From positions 868,001 through 932,000 of the forward strand of contig NZ_CP010776.1 in NCBI RefSeq assembly GCF_001577755.1: a stretch of DNA of 64,000 nt. Reading direction: 5' to 3'. Below the pieces are notes generated by a model that ran no database searches, was not told the DNA's origin, and was given only the letters and a program-made list of their open reading frames with translations. The DNA comes from Rufibacter sp. DG15C. Lineage in GTDB: Bacteria; Bacteroidota; Bacteroidia; Cytophagales; Hymenobacteraceae. Below, piece after piece: positions 446 through 61,235 of this stretch (positions within the stretch are counted from its first letter, which is position 1; each line of letters begins with the position of its first letter). The translations under genes and the position numbers were made by a program.

Positions 446-483
446 CGTTTTTGGCATCTATTCCAGAAAACAGCCTAAAAACG
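446..483. repeat. 38-bp palindromic repeat, copy 1
   Basis: The copy has arms CGTTTTTGGCATCTATTC and AGAAAACAGCCTAAAAACG-type sequence; the outer stem is extended by AAG/CTT. It sits between two divergent genes (the XRE regulator and the DUF4394 lipoprotein), so it cannot be an ordinary terminator for either. The rest of the 281-nt gap shows no clear TAnnTTTG promoter. Confidence 0.9.
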
Positions 484-625
484 CTTTATAGAAAATATAG
501 GAGGGCTCAATCTTACTTCCGCCACTGTGTGTTCTGAGCATGGCAAGTTTATTTAGAAGCCCGCAATCTGGGCATCAAGCCAGTTCGTAGGTCCCTACAT
601 ATGAACCACTTAAACACATCTTGCT

Positions 626-1519
626 ATGAAAACAAACAAACATTTTGCCTTCGGGCTTTCGGGATTTCTCTCCATTTCCCTGTTATTTTCTTCTTGCTCT
701 ACAGATGAGCTTGAGACCTTGACCCCACAAAACGCGACGGCTATTGACGCAGCTAAAAAGATGGACAGCCCCACCCTTTTTTATGCGCTTACCAATATGA
801 ATCAGTTGGTGAAGTACAGCTCCAACCAAACCATACAGGAGATGAGCGCGGTTAGCATTACCGGCTTACAAAGCGGCGAGAGCCTCTTGGGCATTGATTT
901 CCGGCCAGCCACGGGCCAACTGTATGCCGTTAGTAACCAAAGTAGATTGTATGTGATTGATCAAATGACGGGGGCTGCCATGGCTATAGGTTCTCAGCCC
1001 TTCTCCCCTGCCATTGAGGGCACAGAGGTGGGCTTTGACTTTAACCCGACGGTAGACCGCATTAGGTTAGTGACCAACACAGGCCAGAATCTTCGTTTGA
1101 ACCCCATCACAGGAACAGTGGCTGCCATTGACGGTGATTTGAACCCAGGAAACCCGGCGGTAGTAGCCGCGGCGTATACCAACAGCATGGCCGGCGCTAC
1201 GTCTACCACCCTGTATGACATTGACGTAAACACTGACAAGCTCTACATTCAGTCTCCTCCTAACAGCGGCGGATTGGTAGAAGTAGGTAGCCTAAACGTG
1301 CAGGCCTCCGGCGAAGGCGGATTTGACATTTCCCCAGGCAACTCCATGGCCCTTGCTGTTTTGTATGGCCGGGGTGGCGGCGATGCCGATCAACAAGAAG
1401 AATCAAACGGCAACAAATACCGGTTCTACTCCATTGACCTGCAGACGGGCAAGGCGAAGAACCTGGGCAAAACAGACCGAGCCGTAATTGGTATTGCCAT
1501 CATGCCAACTGGCAACTAA
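626..1519 (+). CDS. DUF4394 domain-containing lipoprotein
   Basis: 297 aa. It begins with a lipoprotein signal peptide whose lipobox (LLFSSC) puts the lipidated Cys near residue 24, so the protein is probably anchored to a membrane facing the periplasm or the surface. Residues of about 50-290 match the DUF4394 pattern: FYALT near the start, then GIDFRPATGQLYAV, a VGFDFNPTVDRIR block, NLRLNPITGTV, and a closing FDISPG segment. These repeats resemble a beta-propeller that reads out as 'time/value' blocks. The biochemical role of DUF4394 is not known. It is a single gene, convergent with the esterase at 1711, and is followed by a strong terminator hairpin. Confidence 0.85.
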   Translation: MKTNKHFAFGLSGFLSISLLFSSCSTDELETLTPQNATAIDAAKKMDSPTLFYALTNMNQLVKYSSNQTIQEMSAVSITGLQSGESLLGIDFRPATGQLYAVSNQSRLYVIDQMTGAAMAIGSQPFSPAIEGTEVGFDFNPTVDRIRLVTNTGQNLRLNPITGTVAAIDGDLNPGNPAVVAAAYTNSMAGATSTTLYDIDVNTDKLYIQSPPNSGGLVEVGSLNVQASGEGGFDISPGNSMALAVLYGRGGGDADQQEESNGNKYRFYSIDLQTGKAKNLGKTDRAVIGIAIMPTGN

Positions 1520-1564
1520 GCCATTCGTTCTCTCTTGGGTAGTTTCTTCAACCCACCCCATCTT

Positions 1565-1609
1565 AAACAAAGAAGCCGTTTCAATCTAGTTGAAACGGCT
1601 TCTTTGTTT
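1565..1609. terminator. Bidirectional intrinsic terminator hairpin
   Basis: A perfect 20-bp stem (AAACAAAGAAGCCGTTTCAA at 1565-1584 and its complement at 1590-1609) surrounds a 5-nt loop. It lies between the convergent DUF4394 gene and the esterase at 1711, and both strands end in TTTGTTT, so it can serve both. This is one of the few convergent gaps here without the 38-bp palindrome. Confidence 0.85.
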
Positions 1610-1710
1610 AGTGAGCATCAGCAATAGACTTTCTTTTACTGAGATGAGTATCCTTAATGGCAACTGCCAAGATACCTTGGCCAACTTTGCTTGTACAGGG
1701 AATGATTCTA

Positions 1711-2919
1711 CTATTTCCCCGCCTCCAGGCTTTTCAGCTTTCTTCTGGTTTCTGCTACTTCCTCCAAAGACAGTGCCTTTTTAAAAGCTTCCATGGCTTT
1801 CTTCTTATTACCTACCGCCACGTAATAGTCGCCCATGGAATCATAGAGGTTGCCCACGGCGGGGTAGTTTTCAAGGTTTAATTGGAAAAATTGGTAGGCC
1901 TTGTCATACCGTTTTTCGCTCAAAGAAATATAACCCAGCGTATTCACTGTGGTCATGTCCGGCAACACTGGGTATTGTAGCATAGCAGACACGGCACGGT
2001 AATGATTTTTGATATAGTCTACGGTGATGGTAGGATCTTTTAAGTCCTTGTCTAGCTCATATTTTTTGAAGAGATACCGCAGGGCGTCGTACTGCGCCGG
2101 GAACGGCACCGAACCATGATTGTCTTCTGGGTAGTACTTCCAGGCCCAGGCCAGGTTCTTGCTCTTTCTGAGCGTCTCCCTGAACAAGAGGTGGTTTTTC
2201 ACATTATGATTGCCTTGCGTTTTGTCCTGCACTACCCGCACGGTATCCATCCCCTTCTCCATGGTATTGGCAACAGCATAGAAGAGGCTTTCATTAGCGT
2301 AGTCTTTTTGCGTGAGGGCTTTCTCGGCCTGTTTCATGATGAGTTGCTTGTCCCACCAAATGCTAGGGTCAATGGCCACATACGATGCAAAGAGGGCTGG
2401 TTGGTGCACCAGGGCCTGCAAGACGGTCAAACCGCCCAGGGAGTGCCCTACCAGCATGCGGTACGGCTGGGTTTGGTAGCGCTTTTCAATGTAGGGCATC
2501 ACTTCCTTTTCCAGGAAGGCCATAAAATTGGCTCCTCCGCCCGATGTCTTTAAATCATTGGCCGGCTCACCACTGGCCCAAAACGGATAATGGGTGGGCG
2601 TCAGGTCGCGTACCCGGTCTGTGCTTTCAATGCCGACAATGATCATTTCGGGCATCTTGCCTTGTCCGCTCACGTAGTCCACCGTGCCGGCCATGGACAT
2701 AAAAAAAGCCTCGCCGTCTAACAGGTACATGACTGGGTAACGCGTTTTCGCGCCGTCCCCAGATTTAGGCACATACACCCATAGGTTTAGGTCTTCCTTT
2801 AGAATAGCCGAGTGAATGGTCTGCTTGGTGCCTATAGTGATGGGAGCATCAGGCTGTTTAGCAGTTTGTGCAAAGCAAAAGGTTGGAAGCAGTAATAAAA
2901 GGAAAAGAAATACTCTCAT
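1711..2919 (-). CDS. Secreted esterase (alpha/beta hydrolase) with C-terminal TPR
   Basis: 402 aa with a Sec signal peptide (residues 1-18, ending CFAQ). Residues 20-290 resemble the putative esterase family (PF00756; esterase D / enterochelin esterase type): PVMYLLDGEAFF near 62-73, the nucleophile elbow GHSLGG with Ser160, and a likely catalytic His268 in EDNHGS. The last 90 residues (AYQFFQLNLENYP, GDYYVAVGNKKKAMEAFKKAL) form one or two tetratricopeptide repeats, a common add-on in Bacteroidota members of this family. Such enzymes hydrolyse acyl esters, sometimes siderophore or feruloyl esters; the substrate is not deducible. It is downstream of another exported hydrolase (3185-4198) on the same strand, but a 265-nt gap with a palindrome separates them. 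Confidence 0.85.
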   Translation of the reverse strand: MRVFLFLLLLLPTFCFAQTAKQPDAPITIGTKQTIHSAILKEDLNLWVYVPKSGDGAKTRYPVMYLLDGEAFFMSMAGTVDYVSGQGKMPEMIIVGIESTDRVRDLTPTHYPFWASGEPANDLKTSGGGANFMAFLEKEVMPYIEKRYQTQPYRMLVGHSLGGLTVLQALVHQPALFASYVAIDPSIWWDKQLIMKQAEKALTQKDYANESLFYAVANTMEKGMDTVRVVQDKTQGNHNVKNHLLFRETLRKSKNLAWAWKYYPEDNHGSVPFPAQYDALRYLFKKYELDKDLKDPTITVDYIKNHYRAVSAMLQYPVLPDMTTVNTLGYISLSEKRYDKAYQFFQLNLENYPAVGNLYDSMGDYYVAVGNKKKAMEAFKKALSLEEVAETRRKLKSLEAGK

Positions 2920-3104
2920 GAGAGATGAAGGGGAAAGAATGGGTTTTGCGCCTTTATAGCAATAATGCCTCTAAGGTAAACGGATTACTTAGCACAAGCT
3001 TAAAGAAAGACTATATATAATTCTGATAATATTGGAAAGAGGCGTTTAAAGAAGAGGAAACTACCGTCCCTCACCGCTTATAATAGCTAAAAAGAAAAGC
3101 CATT

Positions 3105-3142
3105 CGTTTTTGGCCTGTTTCCCAGAAAACAAGCTAAAAACG
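3105..3142. repeat. 38-bp palindromic repeat, copy 2
   Basis: The arms are CGTTTTTGGCCTGTTTCC and GAAAACAAGCTAAAAACG. It lies between two minus-strand hydrolase genes, about 40 nt past the stop of the 3185-4198 gene. Confidence 0.9.
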
Positions 3143-3184
3143 GATAGCCTTACACTTTCTTCACCCGACCGAGATCAGGTTTAT

Positions 3185-4198
3185 CTACTTTTGGAAGCTC
3201 TCTTGCATGGCGGTCTTCACCAGCGCCTCATACTCCAATAGCGCTGGAGCGCCTGGTTGCAGGCCAATTAAACAATGAATCTGCCCTGCGAAGCACTTAT
3301 CCCAAACCTTCACGCCGGCTTTTCTCAACTTAGAAGCATATAAAATACCGTCCTCCCGCAGAGGGTCAAACTCGGCGTTGATGATGACCGCCGGTGGTAA
3401 TCCACTCAAGTCTTTGGTGAGAATAGGCGACACTTCTGGGTTGTTGTACTGATTAGGCGCATACGTTTCTACCGCGAAGTAGCAGGCGTCTTTGGTCTGG
3501 AAGTAGCCTTTGGCGTTCTGCTGGTAAGACACAGACGTTTCCATGTGCTGGGGCCTTAGGTCCACCGGCAAACCGTTCATCACCTGCAGTTTTATCTTTT
3601 TAGCGATGCCTTCCTTCTTGGCTTTCTGGGCGATGACTGCCACCAGATTAGCACCGGCGCTGTTGCCTAGCAAGACAATGCGGTCAGTATCTCCGCCCAG
3701 ACTTCTGCCATGTTGCGCTACCCATATAAATGCGTTGTAACTGTCATTGACTGCCCCCGGGAACCTATGCTCTGGTGCCACCCTATAATCAACGGCTACC
3801 ACCACAGCCCCATACGTTTTAGACTCCAGCCACAAAGAGTGCTCCAGGCCCGGCAACAACGGCGAGATGAAGCCACCCCCATGGTAGTTGATGATGATGG
3901 GCGCGTTAGTCGTTTTAGAGGCATTGAACACCAAGACCGGAATGCTGTCTGCCGTGATCTTCATTCTCCGCATATCTTCTTTGGGATAAGGAATGGCAGG
4001 CGGACCGGCAAATTTGATCTGCTCCATGGGCATAGCCCTTAACTGGTCCAAGGTCAAATCCTGATACCCTATCATTTTCAGAAAGCCCGCTACGTTGGGG
4101 TCCAGCACCCGCGAATTGCAAGCCTGCGCCAAAACCACTGACGTGTTAAAAATGAGAGACAGAAGGCTTAGACTGGTGAGCAGGAAGAATCTCTTCAT
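3185..4198 (-). CDS. Exported alpha/beta hydrolase, hormone-sensitive lipase family
   Basis: 337 aa with a signal peptide (about residues 1-25, ending VLAQA). The oxyanion-hole motif HGGG at 106-109, the nucleophile elbow GNSAGAN with Ser180, EFDPLRED with Asp278 and the IHCL segment with His308 together make the catalytic triad and layout of the HSL (family IV) carboxylesterases. These act on short-chain acyl esters; the natural substrate is unknown. The VDYRVAPEHRFPGA block at about 136-149 is also typical of the family. The gene is monocistronic in appearance, preceded by a 272-nt gap that holds a palindrome and a terminator. Confidence 0.88.
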   Translation of the reverse strand: MKRFFLLTSLSLLSLIFNTSVVLAQACNSRVLDPNVAGFLKMIGYQDLTLDQLRAMPMEQIKFAGPPAIPYPKEDMRRMKITADSIPVLVFNASKTTNAPIIINYHGGGFISPLLPGLEHSLWLESKTYGAVVVAVDYRVAPEHRFPGAVNDSYNAFIWVAQHGRSLGGDTDRIVLLGNSAGANLVAVIAQKAKKEGIAKKIKLQVMNGLPVDLRPQHMETSVSYQQNAKGYFQTKDACYFAVETYAPNQYNNPEVSPILTKDLSGLPPAVIINAEFDPLREDGILYASKLRKAGVKVWDKCFAGQIHCLIGLQPGAPALLEYEALVKTAMQESFQK

Positions 4199-4326
4199 GG
4201 AGTTTTTCTTTTATATGTAGCATTCCATCCGGCATTATTACAAAACGCTACAGAATAAGACTCAAGAACGAAGAATCGCCCATTTCTCTTAGCTTATTTA
4301 TATAGCCTTTAAGCTATACCTCCTCT

Positions 4327-4364
4327 CGTTTTTTGCCTGTTTTCATCGAAAGAACCCAAAAACG
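4327..4364. repeat. 38-bp palindromic repeat, copy 3 (fused to terminator)
   Basis: The left arm is well kept (CGTTTTTTGCCTGTTTTC) while the right arm has drifted (GAAAGAACCCAAAAACG). Its right end abuts the terminator stem at 4365, so minus-strand transcripts from the sigma/partner operon read hairpin then CGTTTTTGGG. Confidence 0.9.
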
Positions 4365-4395
4365 AAGAAGGGACAACCTGTGGTCATCCCTTCTT
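4365..4395 (-). terminator. Intrinsic terminator of the sigma-factor operon
   Basis: A 9-bp stem (AAGAAGGGA / TCCCTTCTT) with a 13-nt loop. On the minus strand the U-tract is supplied by the adjoining palindrome (CGTTTTT). Confidence 0.75.
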
Positions 4396-4470
4396 AATTA
4401 TTCATTCTGTATGAAGCTCAACAATGGTGAGGCGCTGTGATTAATTGAAATTGATCGCTTGCTGTCAGCC

Positions 4471-5646: not shown

Positions 5647-5684
5647 CGTTTTTGGCCTGTTTTGGTGAAACCAGACTAAAAACG
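5647..5684. repeat. 38-bp palindromic repeat, copy 4
   Basis: Left arm CGTTTTTGGCCTGTTTTG, right arm GAAACCAGACTAAAAACG. It lies between the minus-strand genes 5745-6305 and the sigma factor, with no second hairpin. Confidence 0.9.
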
Positions 5685-6513: not shown

Positions 6514-6551
6514 CGTTTTTAGCCTGTTTTTCCAGAAACAGGCTAAAAACG
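6514..6551. repeat. 38-bp palindromic repeat, copy 5 (fused to terminator)
   Basis: Arms CGTTTTTAGCCTGTTTTT and GAAACAGGCTAAAAACG. Its last G is also the first base of the terminator stem at 6551, so on the minus strand the hairpin runs directly into GTTTTTAGCC. It lies in the 318-nt gap 6306-6623; the rest of that gap is AT-rich and I see no gene in it. Confidence 0.9.
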
Positions 6552-9706: not shown

Positions 9707-9744
9707 CGTTTTTGGCCTGTTTTCAGGAAACCAGCCTGTTTTCA
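9707..9744. repeat. 38-bp palindromic repeat, copy 6 (half degenerate, overlaps a gene end)
   Basis: The left arm is intact (CGTTTTTGGCCTGTTTTC); the right arm keeps GAAACCAGCC and then reads TGTTTTCAG instead of AAAAACG. The stop codon and last six or so codons of the 9723-10226 gene lie inside it, the only copy in this window that overlaps a credible coding sequence. Confidence 0.75.
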
Positions 9745-10226
9745 GAAGGAACCTGTAGGCGATGAGATAATAATTCTAGTGTTTGCAGGGCTTCGTGCTC
9801 ATGGCTGGTGCGTAGTTCATAGGCGGGCTCATCTGCGGTGGCATACAAACCCACCGTGTACCATTTCACCAAGGCAGGTTCCTCCCCCGGAAGGTCATGG
9901 TCTGTCGGGATCAGGTTGGTCGTCAATACCACGCGTTCAAAGGCAGGCAAGGGTGCCCATTGGCCAAACTTAATCCCAAACATCAACAAGTATTCCCGCA
10001 CCCGACCTTGCTCAAAATCCAGTTGAAAGCCATGGTGCGTAAACTTGAACAAAACACCCAAAACCATTAGCAACGCTCCCACCGCCAACATCTGCGTCTG
10101 GTTCACCTCCCCACTCCACCACCATCGACTGCTCATCATCAACGCGCCTACCAACAACAACCCATACCCGGCGTAACTGAGCGAGCCAAAGAAAGAATCT
10201 GTTTTGCGGTCGAAGATGTGGGACAT
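9723..10226 (-). CDS. Hypothetical membrane protein with cytoplasmic tail
   Basis: 167 aa. Two membrane helices at about 17-33 and 46-62 are followed by a soluble domain of about 100 residues with FEQGRVREYLLMFGIKFGQW and a C-terminal LRTSHEHEALQTLELLSHRL helix. This resembles the PH-like 'bPH' small membrane proteins in outline only; no motif proves it. The last residues (ENRLVS) and the stop come from palindrome sequence, suggesting the repeat replaced or extended the original 3' end. Transcribed on the minus strand, upstream of the M16 peptidase gene. Confidence 0.65.
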   Translation of the reverse strand: MSHIFDRKTDSFFGSLSYAGYGLLLVGALMMSSRWWWSGEVNQTQMLAVGALLMVLGVLFKFTHHGFQLDFEQGRVREYLLMFGIKFGQWAPLPAFERVVLTTNLIPTDHDLPGEEPALVKWYTVGLYATADEPAYELRTSHEHEALQTLELLSHRLQVPSENRLVS

Positions 10227-11650: not shown

Positions 11651-13582
11651 TTAAAAATCTGTGTCCAGTCCAAGGCGGTTTTTCAGCTCTAACAAGCCTG
11701 GATACAACTCTGACAAGTAATTGAAACGGTCTTGTGAGGTGTAGAGATTGCGGCCGATATTTTCCTGCTGGGCTACTTCAATGTTCACCTGCAGGCGGTT
11801 GTGGCCCAAGCTTTGGCGCAAATACAAGAGTAGTTCAGGCTTGAAAGAGTTGAACTCGGCTACCTGCACGTCATTCTCCACGGTCAGACGCACCTCAGCG
11901 CGTTCCACGTCAAAGGACCAGTCGCGGTTCATGATGGTTAACTCCAGCGTACGGTCCGTTTGCTTGACGCGGTCCACGTAGGCTTGCCACAACCGTCTCA
12001 GCTTCTCTTCATTAATGGCAGGAAGGGAGCCGGGCACGTAGGCCTCGGTTTCTTCTTCCAGCACGTCTATGGCCGGGGCTGCCGAAGCAGCCACCTTTTC
12101 CTCTATGTTCTTGAGGCTGGGCAGTTTGGACATCTTGCGCCCGGCCAGCGGCGAAGCGATGGGCGCGCGCAAGGGAGCGGGCGTAGTCACCGGCGCAGCG
12201 GGCGCTATCATAGAAGGCACCGGCGAAGGCGCCTCTTCTGGATACGTGTCAAAGATGGGGTCCTCGCCAGCATCCATGTCTGAGGGTGCCGTATTGTGGT
12301 GCGTTTCTGGGCTGTTTTTCTCAAAACCAGCAGAAACCGAGGGTGCTGAGGCAACTGCTACCGGAGCAGAAACAGGAGCTGGGGCGGGAATAGCAGTTGC
12401 AGGAGCCGCAGGTGCGGCTACGCTGGAACTTCCATTAGTTTTTTTTTTGACGTCCCCGGTAAGAGAGACGTCTGAGGCCAGTTGCAAGGCTTGCGGCAAA
12501 TGCGCCAGTTTCATGAGCAACAGCTCCACGTGCAGGCGCTGGTTCTTGGCGGCTTTAAAGTTCTGGTCACAGGTACCCACTAGGTTCAAGCCTGACAGTA
12601 AGAAGCTCAAACTGGCTTCCTGCGCCTGTTGCGCGTACCGGGACTTAATGTTCTCAGAAACCTCCAGCAATTGTACCGTCACCTGGTCTTTGCACACCAA
12701 CAGGCTTCTGAAGTGGTCGCCAATACCCAAGATAAAGTTATGGGAATCGAAGCCGTTTTTCAAGATCTCGTCATACAGTAACAAGGTGCCGCTCAGGTTC
12801 TGCGTGAGCAGGTAGTCGGTCAGCCTGAAGTAATAGTCATAGTCCAGAATGTGCAGGTTCTGCACCGTGGCCTTATAGGTCAAATGATTACCCGAGAAGG
12901 TCACCATCTGGTCAAAAATGGAAAGCGCATCGCGCAGGGCGCCGTCTGCCTTCTGCGAAATCAGGTGCAGGGCGTCTTCTTCGGCTTCAATGTTCTCTTT
13001 GCCCGCAATGCTGCCCAAATGCTGGACCATGTCTTCAATGCGAATGCGGTTGAAGTCAAAAATCTGACAGCGGGACAGAATGGTAGGGATGATCTTATGG
13101 CGCTCCGTAGTGGCCAGAATGAAAATGGCGTAGGACGGTGGCTCTTCCAGGGTCTTCAAAAACGCGTTGAAGGCTTGGTTGGAGAGCATGTGCACCTCAT
13201 CTATGATGTAGATTTTGTACTTGCCCGTCTGCGGCACATAGCGCACCTGCTCCACCAGACTTCTAATATCATCTACGGAGTTGTTGGACGCCGCATCCAG
13301 CTCATGGATGTTGAACGAACTGCTGGTGTTAAAACTTTTGCAGGAGTCACAGACGTTGCAGGCCTCAGTCTCTGGCGTGATGTTCTCACAGTTGATGGTC
13401 TTGGCCAGAATACGCGCGCACGTAGTCTTGCCCACCCCTCTTGGACCGCAGAACAAGAAGGCCTGCGCCAGATGGTTACTGCTAATCGCGTTCTTTAAGG
13501 TAGTGGTAATATGGTGCTGGCCCACTACACTGTCAAAGGTAGCAGGACGGTATTTTCTAGCCGATACAACAAAATTCTCCAT
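11651..13582 (-). CDS. dnaX: DNA polymerase III subunit gamma/tau
   Basis: 643 aa clamp-loader subunit. The AAA+ core shows the P-loop GPRGVGKT (46-53), four zinc-binding cysteines (Cys65, 75, 78, 81), the Walker B box DEVH (128-131) and a sensor-1 region (LATTERHKIIPTILSRCQ). Domain III ends near residue 375. Residues of about 382-500 are a Pro/Ala-rich linker, and the C-terminal 150 residues are the tau-specific part that contacts the polymerase and helicase. A run of ten A in the coding strand at codons 379-382, exactly at the core/linker border, could allow slippage; a -1 shift gives Lys-Lys-Lys-Asn-stop. A TAACTTTG element ends 7 nt before the ATG. Confidence 0.96.
   Translation of the reverse strand: MENFVVSARKYRPATFDSVVGQHHITTTLKNAISSNHLAQAFLFCGPRGVGKTTCARILAKTINCENITPETEACNVCDSCKSFNTSSSFNIHELDAASNNSVDDIRSLVEQVRYVPQTGKYKIYIIDEVHMLSNQAFNAFLKTLEEPPSYAIFILATTERHKIIPTILSRCQIFDFNRIRIEDMVQHLGSIAGKENIEAEEDALHLISQKADGALRDALSIFDQMVTFSGNHLTYKATVQNLHILDYDYYFRLTDYLLTQNLSGTLLLYDEILKNGFDSHNFILGIGDHFRSLLVCKDQVTVQLLEVSENIKSRYAQQAQEASLSFLLSGLNLVGTCDQNFKAAKNQRLHVELLLMKLAHLPQALQLASDVSLTGDVKKKTNGSSSVAAPAAPATAIPAPAPVSAPVAVASAPSVSAGFEKNSPETHHNTAPSDMDAGEDPIFDTYPEEAPSPVPSMIAPAAPVTTPAPLRAPIASPLAGRKMSKLPSLKNIEEKVAASAAPAIDVLEEETEAYVPGSLPAINEEKLRRLWQAYVDRVKQTDRTLELTIMNRDWSFDVERAEVRLTVENDVQVAEFNSFKPELLLYLRQSLGHNRLQVNIEVAQQENIGRNLYTSQDRFNYLSELYPGLLELKNRLGLDTDF
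12439..12448 (-). other. A10 slippery run in dnaX (candidate programmed frameshift or transcriptional slippage site)
   Basis: The coding strand reads GTC, then ten A, then CTAATGG. In frame this is AAA AAA AAA ACT (codons 379-382). One extra A, or a -1 ribosomal slip, gives AAA AAA AAA AAC TAA, a stop at once, producing a gamma-like protein of 382 residues with the full ATPase core and no tau region. E. coli and Thermus make gamma from dnaX by frameshifting or slippage on similar A runs (established); its use here is inference. Confidence 0.7.
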
Positions 13583-13670: not shown

Positions 13671-13708
13671 CGTTTTTGGCTTGTTTTGGTTGAAACAGGC
13701 CAAAAACG
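13671..13708. repeat. 38-bp palindromic repeat, copy 7
   Basis: Arms CGTTTTTGGCTTGTTTTG and GAAACAGGCCAAAAACG. It lies 12 nt past the stop of the PorT-like gene and upstream of dnaX, both on the minus strand. Confidence 0.92.
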
Positions 13709-13719: not shown

Positions 13720-14382
13720 CTAATTAGCAGTTAACTTATAGTGGAGACCGAAAAGAAGGTTTGTGGAGTTGTTTCTGACGGGATAATCTTTGTTCTCTGA
13801 ATTATTGGCCAGCCCTAAATTATGTCTTACTTCAGCGCTAACCACTAACTTAGTTGATAAAGCATGTTCGTAGCCAATACCTGCCACCACGCCCAAGTCT
13901 ATCTTCTTATCCCGCTCTATCTCTTGCTTGTCTCCTCGCTCAGTTTTCAGATCATCCTTTAACAGATACGCCCCATACGCCCCTCCAGAAACAAATAGAC
14001 CTGTGTTCCTAAGATAAGCGCCTACCAGTATGGGAACAGTTATGTAATGGTACCTAAAATCTACTGTGTAAATGCCATCGCCGGTTGGTTCAAAAAGGGC
14101 AGGGTCTGAGGTATCAAACATTTCCTCAGGGTAATTAATCACGTAGCCCTTGTTTTCATACAGCACATTCGTCTTCAAGAAGAACTTGTTGAATTGGTAT
14201 TGGCCAGAAATTCCTACTGCCTTTCTAAAGTCAGCTTCAGTTTTGATGTTATCATTGCCTCTGACGAATGTATGGGTAGGGCCTGCCACAATGCCTAATT
14301 GCAAGGTGCCAGGGGCCTGTTGCGCCAATCCAGAAGCAGAGGCTATTATTACTAAGGAAAGCGTAAGGATTAAATTTTTCAT
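13720..14382 (-). CDS. PorT-like outer-membrane beta-barrel protein
   Basis: 220 aa from the ATG at 14382, which gives a clean signal peptide (NLILTLSLVIIASASGLAQQ). An upstream in-frame start would add 45 residues translated from the palindrome at 14479 and is rejected. The mature chain has alternating strand pattern and motifs of the PorT / outer-membrane beta-barrel family (PF13568): LQLGIVAGPTHTFV, VGISGQYQFNKFFLKTNVLYE, FRYHYITVPILVGAYL, and a closing NLLFGLHYKL. About eight strands are likely. Members sit in the outer membrane, some linked to type IX secretion; this short one has no proven role. Confidence 0.8.
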   Translation of the reverse strand: MKNLILTLSLVIIASASGLAQQAPGTLQLGIVAGPTHTFVRGNDNIKTEADFRKAVGISGQYQFNKFFLKTNVLYENKGYVINYPEEMFDTSDPALFEPTGDGIYTVDFRYHYITVPILVGAYLRNTGLFVSGGAYGAYLLKDDLKTERGDKQEIERDKKIDLGVVAGIGYEHALSTKLVVSAEVRHNLGLANNSENKDYPVRNNSTNLLFGLHYKLTAN

Positions 14383-14478
14383 ATTATAGAATTTGATATA
14401 ACTCTCAAATATAGAAAGGTGAACAAACAACTTAAATGGTATTTCAGGAAGTAGTGGTTGTAAGAAAATCCCCCCTTT

Positions 14479-14516
14479 TGTTTTTGGCCTGTTTCCCATA
14501 AAAAAGGCCAAAAACA
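14479..14516. repeat. 38-bp palindromic repeat, copy 8
   Basis: Arms TGTTTTTGGCCTGTTTCC and AAAAAAGGCCAAAAACA: the outer base pair has changed from C-G to T-A on both sides, a compensatory change. It lies between the genes at 14552 and 14382, both minus strand. Confidence 0.9.
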
Positions 14517-14551
14517 TAGTATCTCTTATAAACCAAAAAGCTAGGTAAATT

Positions 14552-17499: not shown

Positions 17500-17537
17500 C
17501 ATTTTCGGCCTGTTTTCCGGAAAGCAGGCCGAAAACG
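17500..17537. repeat. 38-bp palindromic repeat, copy 9, with extended stem
   Basis: Arms CATTTTCGGCCTGTTTTC and GAAAGCAGGCCGAAAACG. Flanking GAATCC (17494) and GGATTC (17543) extend the stem to about 24 bp. Note the matched change of T-A to C-G in the arm (TTTTCGG with CCGAAAA). It separates two convergent genes and probably terminates both. Confidence 0.92.
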
Positions 17538-20803: not shown

Positions 20804-20841
20804 CGTTTTTAGCCTAATTTTTAGAAAACAGCCCAAAAACG
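20804..20841. repeat. 38-bp palindromic repeat, copy 10 (shares arm with a second hairpin)
   Basis: It starts 2 nt after the pruA stop codon. Left arm CGTTTTTAGCCTAATTTT is weak; the right arm GAAAACAGCCCAAAAACG is also the left arm of the hairpin at 20824-20865, so only one of the two can form at a time. Confidence 0.9.
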
Positions 20842-24584: not shown

Positions 24585-24839
24585 AGTCTATTGTTTTCTA
24601 AGGGTAAGGACTTTGGATTTCTTAGGCAGTTGCATGCGCATGAGCCACTTGGACACTATAGCGCACACCTTGCCGTTTTCACCCTTTTACAAGCTATGTG
24701 CCAACATTTTATACCATTGATTGTCAATCACTTAAAACACAGACCACTTCCAAAGTGTATAAAACCGGACACTTTCCTATCCAGAACCGAACAGCAGACA
24801 CCGTACACCCCGTTCTAGTGGGCGTACAGAAAGTATTTC

Positions 24840-24877
24840 CGTTTTTGGCCTCGTTTATGGGAAATACCCCAAAAACG
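24840..24877. repeat. 38-bp palindromic repeat, copy 11
   Basis: Arms CGTTTTTGGCCTCGTTTA and GGGAAATACCCCAAAAACG; the inner half is poorly paired. It lies between divergent genes (22107 minus, aspS plus), directly upstream of the aspS promoter, so it is not a terminator of either. The rest of the 363-nt gap shows no gene. Confidence 0.88.
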
Positions 24878-24879
24878 GC

Positions 24880-24912
24880 TTTCGGCAGAACAAAGGAGAT
24901 TGTGTACCTTTG
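24880..24912 (+). promoter_or_regulatory. Promoter of aspS
   Basis: A full -7 match TACCTTTG at 24905-24912, 35 nt before the ATG; the -33 box is imperfect (TTTC at 24880-24883, 21-nt spacing). The palindrome ends 3 nt before the -33 region. Confidence 0.6.
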
Positions 24913-24947
24913 CTTCTTGTTTTTGCGACTTAAGAAATAGAGATACA

Positions 24948-26731: not shown

Positions 26732-26766
26732 AAAGAGCCTGCGGAGTTGTACTTTGCAGGCTCTTT
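26732..26766 (+). terminator. Intrinsic terminator of aspS
   Basis: An 11-bp stem (AAAGAGCCTGC / GCAGGCTCTTT), followed at once by the palindrome's CGTTTT, which serves as the U-tract. Confidence 0.85.
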
Positions 26767-26803
26767 CGTTTTGGCCTGTTTTCTAGAAATTAAGCCAAAA
26801 GCG
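26767..26803. repeat. Palindromic repeat, copy 12 (37 bp, fused to aspS terminator)
   Basis: Arms CGTTTTGGCCTGTTTTC and GAAATTAAGCCAAAAGCG; one T is missing from the left arm. It begins on the base after the aspS terminator stem. Confidence 0.9.
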
Positions 26804-26869: not shown

Positions 26870-27240
26870 CCGGACATGGCCCTAGTCATCCCCCTACCCC
26901 CTTCAAAGGGGGACGGAATGCGCAGGTTGAAGTCTAGTGCTTCGCGGCAGTCGCAGACTGCCTCCACCATGGGTCCGAGTCGCAGACTTGAACCATGGCC
27001 ACGGGACATCAGATCAAGCAAACCGTGCGCAGCACGCATGCCTCTGCAGCGACAGTACCTGCCATTGCCTGTAAGCAACAAACCCACCATCAGGCCATTA
27101 CAGAACTGGGACCCAAGCCAGTCCTGACCCTGAGCGCCTCTGTTGTTTCGTTGCCGAAGGCAGGGCCCCACAGGCCCAGAGTACAACAGCAGTGCGAAGG
27201 GCCAGGACGGGCCCCCGCGGCCGTGAGCGCTTACCAGAAG
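26870..27240. other. Gene-free, GC-richer stretch with several small hairpins (possible degenerate repeat element)
   Basis: Part of a 781-nt gap between aspS and the hydrolase at 27484. It contains CCCCCTTCAAAGGGGG (26897-26912), GGCAGTC-GCA-GACTGCC (26946-26962), CGTGC-GCA-GCACG (27024-27036) and a twice-occurring AGTCGCAGACT. Open frames on both strands have no recognisable content. Composition differs from the AT-rich gaps elsewhere. It looks like a remnant or an interspersed element; I cannot name it. Confidence 0.45.
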
Positions 27241-27304
27241 AGATGCAACAAATTAGTCATTAATACCCACAACAAAGGGTTCTTCTCTAGAAATCGCTTT
27301 CAGG

Positions 27305-27342
27305 CATTTTTCGCTTATTCCTCAGTAAACAAGCCAAAAACG
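27305..27342. repeat. 38-bp palindromic repeat, copy 13 (degenerate)
   Basis: Left arm CATTTTTCGCTTATTCCT is much altered; right arm TAAACAAGCCAAAAACG is recognisable. Upstream of the hydrolase gene at 27484. Confidence 0.7.
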
Positions 27343-27483
27343 ACATCCCCTTCCAAGTAAAACAAGAGCCTCTGCCGTTCACACATCCGAACAACCGCTC
27401 ATCATATTTCACTTCTCTAGCATGGTGACTTCCTGCATCTTTGTATCAAGCAATCGCACTTAAAACCCTAATCCATAGAAACC

Positions 27484-30123: not shown

Positions 30124-30161
30124 CGTTTTTAGGCTGATTTCTGGGAAACGGACTAAAAACG
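30124..30161. repeat. 38-bp palindromic repeat, copy 14 (fused to terminator)
   Basis: Arms CGTTTTTAGGCTGATTTC and GGAAACGGACTAAAAACG. It lies 9 nt past the response-regulator stop and 1 nt before the terminator at 30163, between convergent transcripts. Confidence 0.9.
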
Positions 30162-35590: not shown

Positions 35591-35628
35591 CGTTTTTGGC
35601 TTGATTTCTGAAAACCAGGCCTAAAACG
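35591..35628. repeat. 38-bp palindromic repeat, copy 15 (inside nuo locus)
   Basis: Arms CGTTTTTGGCTTGATTTC and GAAAACCAGGCCTAAAACG. Between nuoJ and nuoK, 21 nt beyond the nuoJ terminator hairpin. Confidence 0.9.
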
Positions 35629-38960: not shown

Positions 38961-38998
38961 CGTTTTTAGCCTCTTTTCTAGAAAACAGGCTAAAAACG
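38961..38998. repeat. 38-bp palindromic repeat, copy 16 (inside nuo locus)
   Basis: Arms CGTTTTTAGCCTCTTTTC and GAAAACAGGCTAAAAACG, one of the best matches. Between nuoF (8 nt past its stop) and nuoG, with no other hairpin. Confidence 0.93.
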
Positions 38999-42740: not shown

Positions 42741-43295
42741 CTATTTAATGTTGTAAGAAGCTAGTAATGCTTGATATTCTGGTGAGTTACGGCGGCGCAG
42801 GGACTCATTCTCAGCCAAATCCTGAATACGCATCAAGCCATCCAGAATCTGCTCTGGGCGCGGCGGGCAGCCCGGCACGTACACGTCTACCGGTACCACA
42901 CGGTCAATGCCCTGCAATACGCTGTAAGAGTCAAAGATACCACCGCTGCTGGCGCAGGCGCCCACGGCAATCACCCAACGTGGTTCGGCCATCTGCTCAT
43001 ACACCTGCTTTACCACCGGCGCCATCTTCTTGGCAATGGTGCCCATCACCATCAGCAAGTCTGCCTGACGCGGCGAGAAGCTGGGACGCTCAGACCCGAA
43101 ACGGGAAATATCATAATGAGAACCCATGGTGGCCATGTACTCAATACCGCAGCAAGACGTAGCAAACGGCAAAGGCCATAAAGAGTGCTTGCGGGCCATG
43201 CCTACCACCTTCTCAATAGAGGTGGCAAAGAAACCGGCACCTTCAATGCCCTCAGGGGCATTCACCAAGGTAATATCGCTTTTGTTATCGCTCAT
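42741..43295 (-). CDS. nuoB: NADH-quinone oxidoreductase subunit B
   Basis: 184 aa from ATG 43295. A longer frame would translate the palindrome 43299-43336 and is rejected. Cluster N2 ligands: the Cys pair in TSCCGIEYM, Cys in GACASSGG and Cys in VPGCPPRPEQILDGL. N2 gives electrons to quinone. The palindrome ends only 3 nt before the start codon, so an RNA hairpin could press on the ribosome-binding region. Confidence 0.97.
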   Translation of the reverse strand: MSDNKSDITLVNAPEGIEGAGFFATSIEKVVGMARKHSLWPLPFATSCCGIEYMATMGSHYDISRFGSERPSFSPRQADLLMVMGTIAKKMAPVVKQVYEQMAEPRWVIAVGACASSGGIFDSYSVLQGIDRVVPVDVYVPGCPPRPEQILDGLMRIQDLAENESLRRRNSPEYQALLASYNIK

Positions 43296-43298
43296 TGT

Positions 43299-43336
43299 TG
43301 TTTTCGCTTTGTTTTCTGGAAAAGAGGCCAAAAACG
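43299..43336. repeat. 38-bp palindromic repeat, copy 17 (next to nuoB start)
   Basis: Arms TGTTTTCGCTTTGTTTTC and GAAAAGAGGCCAAAAACG. It lies in the 104-nt nuoA-nuoB gap, 3 nt from the nuoB ATG. Confidence 0.88.
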
Positions 43337-44235: not shown

Positions 44236-44784
44236 ATGAACAGAAAATACCTTATAGCCCTTATCCTTCCGTTTTTACTGGCCTTCGCCGGACCCAAGCT
44301 GAAAAAGATTGCTATTACCAAAGACGTGAGCCTCTCCATCCCGGAGACCTTTGCGGTGATGCCTGATGACGGCATTGCCCGCGAATACCCGGCGGCCCGC
44401 AAGCCCCTGGCCGTGTTCACCAGCCCAGACGGCCAGATTGACATCAGCGTAAACCAGCGCCCAAGTACCTTTCCAGAGGGAGATGTGAAAATGATGCAGG
44501 CTTTTTATAAGGCGTCCATCCAGCGCATGTTCTCTGAAGTGAAATTCATCAAAGAGGAGAATCAAAAAATCAACGGCCGCGACTTTCTAGTGTTTGAGTT
44601 TGTCTCTACCGTCAAAGATGAGCGCAAGACCCAGCAATTGGCCCCGGTGAGAAAGTACACCATCATCCAATACACCTTCCTCAAAGACCAGATGCTCATC
44701 TTCAGCTTCAATGCCCCGGCGCAGCTGCAGCCGCAGTGGCAGGAGACCGCCAAAGCCGTGATGGCCAGCGCCCAAGTCAAGTAG
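44236..44784 (+). CDS. Hypothetical exported protein
   Basis: 182 aa with a signal peptide (NRKYLIALILPFLLAFA). The mature chain begins KKIAITKDVSLSIPETFAVM and reads AVFTSPDGQIDISVNQRPS, then NGRDFLVFEFVSTVKDE and MLIFSFNAPAQLQPQWQETA, a layout like PsbP/DcrB-type small alpha/beta proteins that bind at membranes. That is a resemblance, not proof. In plan it matches the gene at 18481. It is followed by a palindrome and a terminator. Confidence 0.72.
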   Translation: MNRKYLIALILPFLLAFAGPKLKKIAITKDVSLSIPETFAVMPDDGIAREYPAARKPLAVFTSPDGQIDISVNQRPSTFPEGDVKMMQAFYKASIQRMFSEVKFIKEENQKINGRDFLVFEFVSTVKDERKTQQLAPVRKYTIIQYTFLKDQMLIFSFNAPAQLQPQWQETAKAVMASAQVK

Positions 44785-44791: not shown

Positions 44792-44829
44792 CGTTTTTAG
44801 CCTTTTTCCCAGAAAACAGGCCGAAAACG
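44792..44829. repeat. 38-bp palindromic repeat, copy 18
   Basis: Arms CGTTTTTAGCCTTTTTCC and GAAAACAGGCCGAAAACG. It begins 7 nt after the stop of the 44236 gene and precedes the terminator at 44847. Confidence 0.92.
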
Positions 44830-46108: not shown

Positions 46109-46146
46109 CGTTTTTGGCCTATTTTCGAGAAAACAGCCCAAAAACG
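46109..46146. repeat. 38-bp palindromic repeat, copy 19
   Basis: Arms CGTTTTTGGCCTATTTTC and GAAAACAGCCCAAAAACG; flanking ATC/GAT extends the stem. It lies past the sod terminator and upstream of the DUF2339 gene. Confidence 0.92.
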
Positions 46147-49895: not shown

Positions 49896-49905
49896 AGACC
49901 ACTCC

Positions 49906-49944
49906 ATTTTCAGCCTCTTTCCCCAGAAAATAGGCCCAAAACGC
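49906..49944. repeat. Palindromic repeat, copy 20 (39 bp)
   Basis: Arms CATTTTCAGCCTCTTTCC and AGAAAATAGGCCCAAAACG, with one extra base at the centre. It begins 10 nt past the DUF3999 stop. Confidence 0.88.
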
Positions 49945-53278: not shown

Positions 53279-53316
53279 CGTTTTTGGGCTATTTTCTGGA
53301 AAGTAGGCCAAAAACA
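53279..53316. repeat. 38-bp palindromic repeat, copy 21 (fused to terminator)
   Basis: Arms CGTTTTTGGGCTATTTTC and GAAAGTAGGCCAAAAACA. It starts 3 nt after the terminator stem. Confidence 0.9.
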
Positions 53317-54592: not shown

Positions 54593-54630
54593 CATTTTTA
54601 GGCTATTTACCAGAAAACAGGCTAAAAACA
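54593..54630. repeat. 38-bp palindromic repeat, copy 22 (overlaps terminator)
   Basis: Arms CATTTTTAGGCTATTTAC and GAAAACAGGCTAAAAACA. Its last six bases (AAAACA) are also the outer arm of the 54625-54664 hairpin. Confidence 0.9.
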
Positions 54631-55777: not shown

Positions 55778-55786
55778 CAAAATATC

Positions 55787-56215: not shown

Positions 56216-56301
56216 GTTCTGTTAATTAATAATTAGTAATGAATAATTAAGAATGGGGAAGATACGGGGAATGGAGTAAAACTGGTAAAGTAAAGCAGAG
56301 T

Positions 56302-56339
56302 CGTTTTTAGGCTCTTCCTGAGAAAAGAGGCCAAAAACG
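56302..56339. repeat. 38-bp palindromic repeat, copy 23, between divergent genes
   Basis: Arms CGTTTTTAGGCTCTTCCT and AGAAAAGAGGCCAAAAACG. Flanking GTAAAG and CTTTAC can extend the pairing. It abuts the -7 box of the gene at 56394. Confidence 0.9.
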
Positions 56340-56343
56340 GCTT

Positions 56344-56351
56344 TACTTTTG
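56344..56351 (+). promoter_or_regulatory. Possible -7 element of the LD-carboxypeptidase gene
   Basis: TACTTTTG, a full -7 match, 42 nt before the GTG. The -33 region falls inside the palindrome and is not TTTG. Confidence 0.5.
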
Positions 56352-56393
56352 CGGCCTTTTGCTACTTTCAAGATTCATTAGCCTTTAAGAACC

Positions 56394-57302: not shown

Positions 57303-57313
57303 AAATAGAAATC

Positions 57314-57351
57314 CGTTTTTGGCTTGTTTCTAAGGAAACAGGCCAAAAACG
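57314..57351. repeat. 38-bp palindromic repeat, copy 24, with extended stem
   Basis: Arms CGTTTTTGGCTTGTTTCT and GGAAACAGGCCAAAAACG; flanking GAAATC (57308) and GATTTC (57357) extend the stem to about 24 bp. It is the only hairpin between convergent genes, so it is a probable terminator for both. Confidence 0.92.
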
Positions 57352-57378
57352 GATTTCACACTTCTCCTTTTATATCAA

Positions 57379-58386: not shown

Positions 58387-59869
58387 AAGCCCAGTCAATC
58401 CCGGTTTTCATATCTTTAATGACAATGCCCTGTCCTTTAAGCTGCGCCCTAATCAAATCCACCTTGGCGTAGTCTTTGGCTTCCTTGGCTTCTTTGTAGA
58501 AACTGAGCACCAGCTGGAGCATATCCATGGCATTGGCAGTCTGCTCTTCTTTTAGGCCCAAGATGTCTTTCACCATGGTCTGGTAGGCGGTGCGCATCTG
58601 CTCAAATACTTCTTTGGAGATGGTCTCCAATTTAAAGCCGCCCGTGAACATGCTGTTGATTTTCTTGAGCAGGTTGAACAAGGCCGCAATGACTTTGGCG
58701 GTGTTTAAATCATCATTCAAGCTAGTAAATAATTCGGCTACTTGCTTCTTGATTTCCTCTTCGGCTTTGGCGTCAATCTCACCAGCAGTTTCTGGGTACT
58801 GCAACTGCTCCAAGATGCGCAGTCCGTTCATCACCTTCAAGAAGCCTTTGCGCGCGGCCTGCAGCCCTTCATTGCTGAAGTCCAGCGTGCTACGGTAATG
58901 GGCCTGCAAGATGAAGAACCGGATGGTCATGGGGCTATAGGCCTGTTGCAATACCTCATGCTTGCCAGTGAACAACTCGCCCAACGTGATGAAGTTGCCC
59001 AAGGATTTGCCCATCTTCTTGCCGTTGATGGTGATAAGGTTGTTATGCATCCAGAAGCGGGCGGCGTCTGAATGGTTGTGACTGGCCTGGCTCTGCGCAA
59101 TCTCGCATTCATGGTGCGGGAACATCAAGTCCAAACCACCGCCGTGGATGTCAAACTGCGTGCCCAGGTATTTTCTACTCATGGCCGAGCACTCCAAATG
59201 CCAGCCCGGAAATCCTTCTGACCAAGGTGAGTTCCAGCGCATGATATGACTTGGCGAGGCCTTTTTCCAGAGCGCAAAATCCAGCGGCGAGCGCTTCTCC
59301 TCCTGCCCTTCCAGGTTGTCGCGGGTATTGGACAACAAGTCTTCTATCACGCGGCCAGACAGCTTGCCGTAGTTATGCTCCTTGTTATAGGCAGGTACGT
59401 CAAAATAAACCGACCCGTTGGACTCATAGGCCAGGCCGTTGGCCAGAATCTCCTGAATCATCTCAATCTGCTCAATGATGTGGCCCGAGGCGCGTGGCTC
59501 TATATCCGGGGGCAATACGTTCAGGCTGGCCATGTCTTTATGGAAGCTGTTGGTGTATTTCTCCACCACTTCCATGGGCTCCAAGTGCGCAGCTTTGGCC
59601 AGTTTCTGAATCTTGTCCTCGCCAAAGTCGGCATCGTTCTGCAAGTGGCCCACGTCTGTGATGTTGCGCACGTAGCGTACCTTGTAGCCCAAATGTTGCA
59701 TGTAGCGGCGCAATACGTCAAAGGTGATGTACGGGCGGGCGTGGCCTAAATGGGCATCGCCGTAGACGGTAGGCCCGCAGACGTAAAGCCCCACGAACGG
59801 GCTGTGCAAGGGTTCAAAGGTTGACTTCTGGCGCGTGAGCGTATTATATAATGACAATGGGTGTTGCAT
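58376..59869 (-). CDS. cysS: Cysteinyl-tRNA synthetase
   Basis: 497 aa class I synthetase. Zinc ligands start with Cys31 (YVCGPTVYG), then WHLECSAMS and FPHHECE. The HIGH motif is HLGH (40-43) and the KMSKS motif reads KKMGKS. The C-terminal helical domain is complete. It is co-transcribed with the M28 gene. A TAATTTTG element ends 4 nt before the ATG. Confidence 0.96.
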
Positions 59870-59873
59870 GGGG

Positions 59874-59881
59874 CAAAATTA
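59874..59881 (-). promoter_or_regulatory. -7 element of cysS (leaderless)
   Basis: TAATTTTG on the minus strand, 4 nt before the ATG. TTGG lies 21 nt upstream as a weak -33. Confidence 0.65.
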
Positions 59882-59955
59882 TAAAACTTACTGGTACTTC
59901 TGCCAAGACAGCGGCTGCAGAGAAATACGCAGGTGGTTTAGATTAAGGTGAACGC

Positions 59956-59993
59956 CATTTTTCACCTATTTCCTGGAAAACAGGCCAAAAACG
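59956..59993. repeat. 38-bp palindromic repeat, copy 25
   Basis: Left arm CATTTTTCACCTATTTCC, right arm GGAAAACAGGCCAAAAACG. 18 nt past the endonuclease/phosphatase gene stop, upstream of cysS. Confidence 0.9.
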
Positions 59994-60011
59994 GACATTT
60001 GTAGTTCAAGA

Positions 60012-61124
60012 CTATTCTTCTGAGACTACCCCTTCGGGCTTTCTCTCCAACACATACGTGCTTTCCAGGGGAAAATGGTCTGAAAAAGAAATATGCTTTA
60101 GCACGTCAAACCGAAGCAACTGCATGGTGGGGCTGAAGAACTGGTTGTCAATGCGCAGAGGCAGCTTGCCGTTGTAGGTAAACCCAAAACCGCTTCCGCC
60201 CTCTTCAAACGCGTTGTCTAGGTGCCGGCGCAACTGTTGGTAGGTGTAAGAACTGGGCACATCGTTTAAGTCGCCGCAAATCAAAACCGGATGCGGACTT
60301 TCTTGCAAATGCTCTACCAAACGCTGTACCTGGTGGCTACGGGCAATGAAGCCGCCCTTGAGCCTTCGGGCAATGCCGCGGCCTTTGGTTTTGAAGGCGG
60401 CTTCGCTTTCTACGGCTTGGGCTACTTCCTTTTCCTCAATGCTCATGGATTCCAGGTGCATGTTGTAGACCCGCAGCGTGTCTTTGTTGGGCAGCTTGAC
60501 GTCCACAAAAATGACCTGGTTTTTGGTAGGGCGATCAAAGGTCACGTTGCCTTTGTTCACGATAGGGTACCGGGAAAAAATAGCCAAGCCAAACTCAGCG
60601 CCTATTTTGTTAGTGAGCGCCTTGCCCAGGAACATTTCGCGGCCCTTACTGGTGCCTATGCGCTTTTTGCTGTTGTACTGCCGGCTTTTCTTGTCATAAT
60701 AGAATTCCTGCAGGCAAAGGATGTCAGCGGGGTGGTTGGCCACCCATTCCAGCTCCTTTTCAGGAAGGTCTGGATCTGATGCGTGCAGGTGCTTGTATAC
60801 GTTGAACACGCGCACGTTGTAACTTAACACACTCACGCGCTGTTGTTCTGGGTGAGGCTCTGCGTCTGGGGTATTCAAGGTAAAGTAGCGGGTATGCTGG
60901 CTCCAGAAAAGAACAATCAATAGCAATGGCAGAAGCGCCATGAGCGGTTTCTTCCAGAGCCAGAGCAGACCCATGAAGAAATTAAAGAGCAAGGCCCCAG
61001 GCAGCGACATGGCCAAAAAGCCAGCCGGCCAAAACACGTGCGGCGGCACATATTGACATAAAACTCCCACCAGCAGCCAGCCCGTAGACAGCGCGGTCAG
61101 GAAAGAAAGAAGCGTCTTCAGCAC
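60012..61124 (-). CDS. Membrane-anchored endonuclease/exonuclease/phosphatase family protein
   Basis: 370 aa from GTG 61124, which starts LKTLLSFLTALSTGW; a TTG at 61160 would add 12 residues. Three membrane helices in the first 95 residues precede an EEP domain: LSYNVRVFN, LCLQEF (Glu), MHLES, GDLNDVP, and SDHFPLE (Asp-His). The family cuts phosphodiester or phosphoester bonds in DNA, lipids or sugars. Its substrate is unknown; the domain probably faces the periplasm. Confidence 0.88.
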   Translation of the reverse strand: MLKTLLSFLTALSTGWLLVGVLCQYVPPHVFWPAGFLAMSLPGALLFNFFMGLLWLWKKPLMALLPLLLIVLFWSQHTRYFTLNTPDAEPHPEQQRVSVLSYNVRVFNVYKHLHASDPDLPEKELEWVANHPADILCLQEFYYDKKSRQYNSKKRIGTSKGREMFLGKALTNKIGAEFGLAIFSRYPIVNKGNVTFDRPTKNQVIFVDVKLPNKDTLRVYNMHLESMSIEEKEVAQAVESEAAFKTKGRGIARRLKGGFIARSHQVQRLVEHLQESPHPVLICGDLNDVPSSYTYQQLRRHLDNAFEEGGSGFGFTYNGKLPLRIDNQFFSPTMQLLRFDVLKHISFSDHFPLESTYVLERKPEGVVSEE

Positions 61125-61197
61125 AAAAAAAGAATTTCTAGCAGGGGTAAACCTACGCAAAAAATCCGGAGAGGGCTTGCCGCTCGTAGATGAGAAG

Positions 61198-61235
61198 CGT
61201 TTTTGGCCTAGTTCTGGGAAAACACCTCCAAAACA
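61198..61235. repeat. 38-bp palindromic repeat, copy 26, between divergent genes
   Basis: Arms CGTTTTTGGCCTAGTTCT and GGAAAACACCTCCAAAACA. Upstream of both the EEP gene and tatA. Confidence 0.88.

Follow-up and report, generated by a model that had tools for sequence, protein, structure and literature searches.

What kind of element is a 38-bp palindrome that recurs 26 times within 64 kb of a bacterial chromosome? The question is raised by positions 868,001 to 932,000 of contig NZ_CP010776.1 of Rufibacter sp. DG15C (the window, 64,000 nucleotides in full length). The host genome is a single contig of 4.14 Mb, referred to as G000; G and L labels denote genomes and sampled stretches, respectively. 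Judged by the NuoH that the window encodes, the closest named records belong to Rufibacter, with identities of up to 90%. High-copy intergenic palindromes in bacteria are usually interpreted as RNA hairpins or as selfish repetitive extragenic palindromic (REP) elements. Here we favor, with moderate confidence, a different reading, in which the element would be a double-stranded DNA dyad that is read by a putative protein and marks the boundaries between genes, with about a tenth of the copies having become terminators.

The 26 copies listed in an earlier note on this DNA served to build a symmetric weight matrix of the palindrome. The matrix recovered every one of these same copies, at 13.8 to 58.2 bits, while ten Markov shuffles reached 5.6 bits at most; the consensus and the arm length given in that note agree with this analysis. 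Two copies start one base before the positions listed then, at 26766 and 49905 instead of 26767 and 49906. The weakest two are the copy at 49905, in which an extra base separates the arms, and the copy at 9707, whose outer arm is missing at the end of an open reading frame (ORF). A 25.5-bit look-alike at 12302-12339 lies inside a 643-aa ORF and differs by one change from its counterpart in the close relative G013. It is probably a coding coincidence and no member of the family, although it is included in the score-based sample counts given below (174 and 175). A 9.2-bit site at 44270, also scored in the window, was not taken as a member either.

Besides the window, the matrix scan covered 20 evenly spaced 20-kb stretches of the host genome, giving a sample of 464 kb. 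It contained 174 copies of at least 20 bits, 167 of them above 30 bits. In a shuffled control, with one shuffle per stretch, the maximum was 0.8 bits and no site reached 20 bits. Scaled up, the sample gives an estimate of about 1,500 to 1,550 copies per genome. A strict form of the motif in International Union of Pure and Applied Chemistry (IUPAC) code, searched with at most two mismatches, was found at 882 places in the whole host genome. These counts bear out the expectation of well over a thousand copies per genome, and the earlier idea of a genome-wide family holds, as the motif is abundant outside the window and shuffled sequence is without comparable matches.

The same strict form was found at 1,263 places in G013, at 421 in G012 and at 0 to 108 in 13 other Rufibacter genomes. 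It is present in 15 of the 16 Rufibacter genomes, the sixteenth (G008) having decayed copies. With the same settings, one place was found in one of 188 genomes of the family outside Rufibacter, and in an order-wide draw 6 of 390 genomes matched, all of them Rufibacter, compared with 0 of 383 from other genera. With a covariance model, every one of the 16 Rufibacter genomes matched, G008 among them, as did 1 of 43 others. Outside Rufibacter the family is almost absent. Viral contigs contained no exact match to the strict form; no Rfam match at the gathering score was obtained in the window, and no tRNA was found. A literature search, with most subscription journals outside its coverage, returned no description of this repeat. 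The inverted repeats at the nuo loci of 15 non-Rufibacter records resemble ordinary terminators by eye, and no systematic search for repeats unrelated in sequence was made in other genera. A single strong copy in G035, which belongs to another genus of the family, lies 3 bp past the stop codon of an ORF (L025:1499-1536) and was possibly carried in with a transferred gene.

The element consists of two 18-bp mirror arms that flank a pyrimidine-purine step. GTTTT occurs twice in each arm, as an outer and an inner module 11 bp apart, about one helical turn, and the inner modules of the two arms lie 9 bp apart across the dyad. The middle of the arms had been described as drifting. This holds for columns 8, 10, 11, 13, 14 and 17-22 but not for columns 12, 15 and 16 and their mirrors, which in the 464-kb sample are nearly fixed, as are columns 4, 5 and 6 and theirs. 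The variable columns admit limited sets of bases (C or G in column 10, mostly T or A in column 14). Of 175 copies, 102 have TG or CA as their central dinucleotide and 130 a pyrimidine-purine step; as observed before, the dinucleotide has no clear link to gene strand (in sense orientation, 20 TG versus 33 CA; p = 0.10). T is enriched outward of both ends, around +3 to +5, and there are weaker outward T-runs outside the 38 bp.

The arms show little sign of having been selected to pair with each other. In the host, 13.9 of 19 positions paired, compared with 14.1 expected under independence, and in the six genomes with at least 26 copies (the host included) observed pairing minus expectation ranged from -0.5 to +0.2. 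Folding energy over the whole set was -12.05 kcal/mol, versus -12.03 for column-shuffled copies. The central step of the host copies avoids pairing, and in sense-oriented tandem copies G-U combinations were fewer than A-C ones (122 versus 156, central step counted). The scores of left and right arms were uncorrelated (-0.06). Lone half-sites above 18 bits are rare: seven are listed in 464 kb, three of which are dyad parts or lie at the end of a stretch. We had considered lone half-sites as insertion sequence ends and dropped the idea; in L051, what seemed to be an inverted pair lies over or beside a long ORF that we take to encode a type IA topoisomerase. Among 11 one-to-one orthologous copies of the host and G013, no differences were found in columns 1-6, 12, 15, 16, 23-25, 33-36 and 38, and in the 10-bp flanks of the same pairs each column had 3 to 6 differences, except the innermost left one. 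Because the arms do not covary, lone half-sites are rare and these columns are fixed between orthologs, the bulk of the copies appears to be maintained as double-stranded DNA in which neither half is dispensable. In view of the absent covariation and the unchanged folding energy we reject a hairpin or terminator as the general function, and we retain it for a subclass of about 10% of the copies (see below).

Placement relative to genes was counted on a crude ORF call. By this call, 144 of the 174 copies lie in gaps between genes and 23 inside ORFs. Gaps of at least 100 bp numbered 197, of which 112 were occupied: 103 held one copy and nine held two, and 85 were empty. Random placement produced about 25 to 26 gaps with two or more copies, and never fewer than 15 in 2,000 simulations. 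Occupied were 34 of 51 convergent gaps of at least 50 bp, 71 of 122 tandem gaps of at least 100 bp, 19 of 43 divergent gaps of at least 100 bp and 5 of 69 tandem gaps below 50 bp. In tandem gaps, the median distance was 26 bp to the stop codon and 90 bp to the start codon, with 28 of 91 copies lying 0 to 10 bp past the stop; of the convergent copies, 11 of 34 lie within 10 bp of a stop. Three 20-kb blocks of low GC content (L032, L041 and L050; GC 0.40-0.44), selected after the table was seen, had 3 of 22 gaps occupied, versus 109 of 175 elsewhere (p = 1.5e-5). One of them contains a serine recombinase match (G000:C1:112339), which suggests acquired islands. Since these blocks are copy-poor, newer DNA seems to lack the element.

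Positions are held across the genus. Past the stop codon of nuoF, a copy begins within 5 to 8 bp in 15 of 15 genomes with a readable gap, the host included (gene order at nuoF is different in G012), and several further gaps of the nuo region likewise keep the position of their copy across species. The motif itself changes from species to species. Column 13 is C in 97% of the arms of G012 (48 copies), versus G in 55 to 89% in the 13 other genomes listed, and column 14 of G012 is A or G. In G005, of which only 9 copies were sampled, column 6 is A in 78% of arms, versus T in 48 to 99%, and column 7 is G; the latter is A or G in G006 and T in G000 and G013. Orthologous copies were closer to each other than to unrelated copies in all six testable species pairs (those with at least four orthologous pairs, 6 of 66), and the dialects therefore changed in place. 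Motif strength is 48 to 52 bits in G000, G013, G012, G005, G006 and G001, values that are inflated where few copies were sampled. The comparison of 16 genomes thus separates two levels: the bulk of the copies is conserved as DNA and not as a hairpin, and the motif has changed in concert at orthologous sites.

According to the model that we favor, a putative protein would read the 38-bp dyad as a symmetric dimer at some 1,500 places, each half of the dimer probably touching both an outer and an inner module, which are spaced by one helical turn. The model predicts two contact modules in each half, since outer and inner modules did not change together in G005 and G012; the protein and its two-module reading are what we infer from these patterns. 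The mark would usually stand once per intergenic gap, nearer to stop than to start codons, and its function would most likely be that of a boundary, insulator or nucleoid-organizing mark between genes. It would have spread first through a mobile element, probably in the ancestor of the genus, would coevolve with its reader across species, and at some copies would later have been extended into intrinsic terminators. Chromosome organization has been little studied in this phylum. If the reader exists, the genus would offer a testable case of chromosome-wide boundary marking and a natural series of specificity changes, each at hundreds of sites.

Several observations weigh against this model. In 5 of 10 thinly sampled genomes (3 to 19 copies), arm pairing was 0.5 to 1.5 above expectation, and in the host the column pair 7/32 covaries. 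Near-identical copies are in slight excess (90 pairs with three or fewer differences, compared with 60 expected). Of the 23 copies inside ORFs, 15 are no more than 63 bp from an ORF end and eight lie deeper; copies of 40 to 53 bits deep in ORFs of 243 to 755 aa (L042:15831, L047:10724, L049:19319 and L050:16714) are either true intragenic copies or signs of miscalled ORFs. Proximity to stop codons is also compatible with explanations at the RNA level or with mere tolerance. Seven species have a looser motif of 33 to 41 bits, and in G008, sampled in L144, L155, L168-L170, L188 and L189, the motif has largely decayed, with 6 copies at the strict threshold in 100 kb and 47 weak ones, versus 5 in a shuffle. 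This decay and the looser motifs indicate that not every species of the genus depends on the function. The decay in G008 is also useful for tracing the putative reader protein by comparison.

A selfish repeat of REP or miniature inverted-repeat transposable element type, mobilized by a transposase in trans for which the fixed columns would serve as recognition sequence, could account for the excess of near-identical copies; as an explanation of the present family we regard it as unlikely. In size, palindromy and intergenic, stop-proximal placement the element matches REPs as they are presented in PMC3733652. Moreover, about 49 bits at about 1,500 sites would hardly arise by point mutation, so copying probably founded the family. 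All 15 relatives in the genus have matches to Y1 transposases (PF01797), and of three full-length Y1 genes two lie between copies of the element, while the third has a copy on one side. However, the host has no Y1 match at an E value of 1e-3, and the copies that flank Y1 genes adjoin the ends of neighboring genes, at distances from the Y1 gene that vary, and so resemble the copies beside ordinary genes. On these two grounds, an identity with REPs and their associated tyrosine transposases (RAYTs) was rejected. No clear target-site duplication was detected: identical flanks of 6 to 9 bp occurred in 0 of 175 copies, those of 2 bp in 13 versus 8.0 and those of 4 bp in 4 versus 1.2 in shuffles, and those of 3 and 5 bp in two copies and one copy, respectively, and positions are near linkage equilibrium. 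The copy-poor low-GC blocks are contrary to recent spread, and orthologous positions held across the genus and dialects that arose in place also weigh against a selfish repeat. A 146-aa Y1 transposase family of 66 to 79% identity is encoded in three Rufibacter species (L132, L133 and L134), with element copies nearby; in L132 and L133 the gene adjoining the transposase is also shared.

An RNA hairpin in the 3' part of mRNAs, acting as terminator or stabilizer, is quite unlikely for the family as a whole and fits a minority of copies. The placement close to stop codons in tandem and convergent gaps would suit it. In 17 of 171 copies, at least five of the six flanking bases pair and so lengthen the stem, and the arms of these 17 also pair better (15.71 versus 13.65 of 18; p = 8e-5). 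The same tendency was seen in G013 (3 copies), G012 (12) and G006 (7); G009 had a single flank-paired copy. In tandem gaps, a T-rich stretch follows downstream on the sense strand in 9 of 9 flank-paired copies, versus 43 of 83 others (p = 0.005), and 15 of the 17 have one on at least one side. Strong T-runs in the sense direction lie downstream of 19 and upstream of 9 of 92 copies (p = 0.06). At two gaps, flank pairing is conserved between the host and G013 with changed letters, as judged by eye. About a tenth of the copies thus look like elements extended or co-opted into intrinsic terminators, with a stem followed by a U-run.

The remaining copies do not share these properties. In the 154 copies outside this subclass, arm pairing was 13.65 compared with 13.85 expected, and folding energy is that of column-shuffled copies. 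The 38 bp alone form no canonical intrinsic terminator, since the T5 of the consensus precedes the stem on each strand and a U-run after the stem is absent. Divergent gaps are occupied in 19 of 43 cases, and the copy between nuoF and the next gene on the same strand is probably within an operon, so that a strong terminator is unlikely there. A crude terminator detector called 117 sites in 464 kb, which neither avoid nor prefer gaps holding the element (p 0.36-0.64). The earlier proposal of a hairpin that terminates transcription either way therefore survives for the flank-paired subclass and fails for the bulk.

A signal for DNA uptake or self-recognition that spreads through biased uptake and recombination, as in Neisseriaceae and Pasteurellaceae, seems improbable to us. 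Uptake sequences commonly occur singly and also in genes, whereas here lone half-sites are nearly absent, copies in gaps far outnumber those in ORFs (144 versus 23, the latter by the crude call), and there is usually one per gap. Matches to the ComEC and DprA families in all 16 genomes would be in keeping with uptake, but they tell little, as both also occur in G008, with its decayed motif, and in 10 and 11, respectively, of 14 control genomes. The species dialects do resemble those of the DNA uptake sequences (DUS), as PMC3630211 describes them.

Some copies are associated with rearrangement. In 25 of 1,268 pairwise comparisons, at six listed loci of which three are convincing, a single copy bears the outer flanks of two copies that in other species start 75 to 2,077 bp apart; reversed cases were absent. 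In the remaining comparisons the other species had the same copy with both flanks (150), with one flank (418) or with no flank in common (467), or had no copy (208). The clearest case is the gap of the copy at 30124, which has one copy in the host and two in 12 of 13 other species with a readable gap, with inserts between the pair that range from 42 bp to about 2 kb; in G015 no copy was detected there. The host seems to have lost some 2 kb at such a pair that are still present in G013. The pattern of single and paired copies is compatible with deletion between neighboring copies and also with insertion at copies. Between the paired copies after nuoF, several Rufibacter species (L053, L054 and L056) have a second family of inverted repeats (GTCATCCTGAAAGG and a mirror-like partner), and some Pontibacter records contain a similar sequence in this gap.

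A dedicated junction at which gene cassettes enter or leave by site-specific or homologous recombination is nevertheless very improbable: these 25 unreversed comparisons, the apparent 2-kb loss and serine recombinase matches in all 16 genomes (four in the host) speak for it, but just 25 of the 1,268 comparisons have the pattern, the central dinucleotide often differs by eye within a pair of copies, contrary to what a strict crossover overlap would require, recombination mediated by RecA or slippage would suffice without a dedicated enzyme, and one-per-gap placement is unexplained by it alone.

The individual copies of the window illustrate this range of settings. Tandem gaps hold 3105..3142 (59 bits), 4327..4364 (44 bits), 5647..5684 (46 bits), 6514..6551 (51 bits), 44792..44829 (52 bits), 46109..46146 (59 bits), 53279..53316 (54 bits), 59956..59993 (50 bits), 26766..26803 (41 bits), which follows a class II tRNA-synthetase gene read as aspS, and 49905..49943, which is 39 bp long owing to the extra base between its arms. 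Convergent gaps hold 17500..17537 (50 bits) and 57314..57351 (54 bits), both with stem-extending flanks that have other pairing letters in G013, as well as 20804..20841 (55 bits), with a stop codon 1 bp before it, 30124..30161 (46 bits), the copy that is paired in most other species, and 54593..54630 (45 bits). Divergent gaps hold 56302..56339 (43 bits) and 61198..61235 (33 bits). The gap of 24840..24877 (45 bits), upstream of aspS, is also divergent if the 80-aa ORF 24698-24940 is spurious. In 446..483 (47 bits), the flanks extend the stem as in the terminator-like class.

In the nuo region, 35591..35628 (48 bits) occupies a gap in which a classical terminator-like sequence can be seen by eye between the copy and the upstream stop codon, and 38961..38998 (59 bits) begins 8 bp past the nuoF stop. 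Elsewhere, a stop codon lies 11 bp before 13671..13708 (49 bits). The other copies touch called ORFs. The partial copy 9707..9744 (19 bits) has lost its outer arm over the 3' end of ORF 9723-10226, likewise in G013, and 27305..27342 (35 bits) overlaps the end of the 121-aa ORF 26995-27360. The copy 14479..14516 (48 bits) lies at the very start of ORF 13720-14517, whose start codon was probably called too far upstream. The copy 43299..43336 (46 bits) covers the region in which ORF 42741-43331 starts. In eight other species a copy in the orthologous gap ends 2 to 4 bp short of the orthologous start codon, and the element may have become part of the translation start region.

Among known systems, the element is classed with the interspersed palindromes and is neither a REP nor a DUS. 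With the REPs and REPINs of the GTAG and CGTC families, which are associated with RAYTs, it shares that it is a short, high-copy, intergenic palindrome that lies near stop codons and often occupies convergent and tandem gaps. It differs from them in that it is symmetric, with no fixed GTAG or CGTC tag in the consensus or the flanks, and in that the host is without a Y1 match. PMC3733652 attributes an unpaired GTAG or CGTC tag to most, not all, REPs and states that CGTC REPs lack a dedicated RAYT. REPINs commonly show compensatory changes, according to PMC3116915, while the bulk of the copies described here has none between its arms. The element further occupies many divergent gaps, usually stands once per gap and has dialects at orthologous positions.

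With the DUS dialects of Neisseriaceae it has in common more than a thousand copies in this genome, species dialects and some copies in terminators; inverted DUS pairs at terminators and overlapping dyads are reported in PMC3630211. It differs from DUS as a 38-bp two-armed dyad that is mostly intergenic and whose lone arms are nearly absent. DUS dialects are the nearest precedent known to us for the concerted change of a high-copy motif. The dRS3/NIME repeats of Neisseria are short repeats that bracket variable intergenic blocks. The likeness lies in the bracketing, which in Rufibacter is exceptional, the element being positionally conserved across the genus. Sites for CTCF in mammals are binding sites that were probably spread by a repeat and then kept as boundary marks. 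The element would resemble such architectural sites in being genome-wide and probably repeat-spread, with the difference that its reader protein and its boundary role are putative. We offer only tentatively, as the less likely possibility, that it is a bacterial counterpart of these repeat-borne sites: a dedicated two-domain homodimer, perhaps a domesticated transposase, would occupy about one site per gene boundary, and as its specificity shifted between species, some 1,500 sites would have followed in place.

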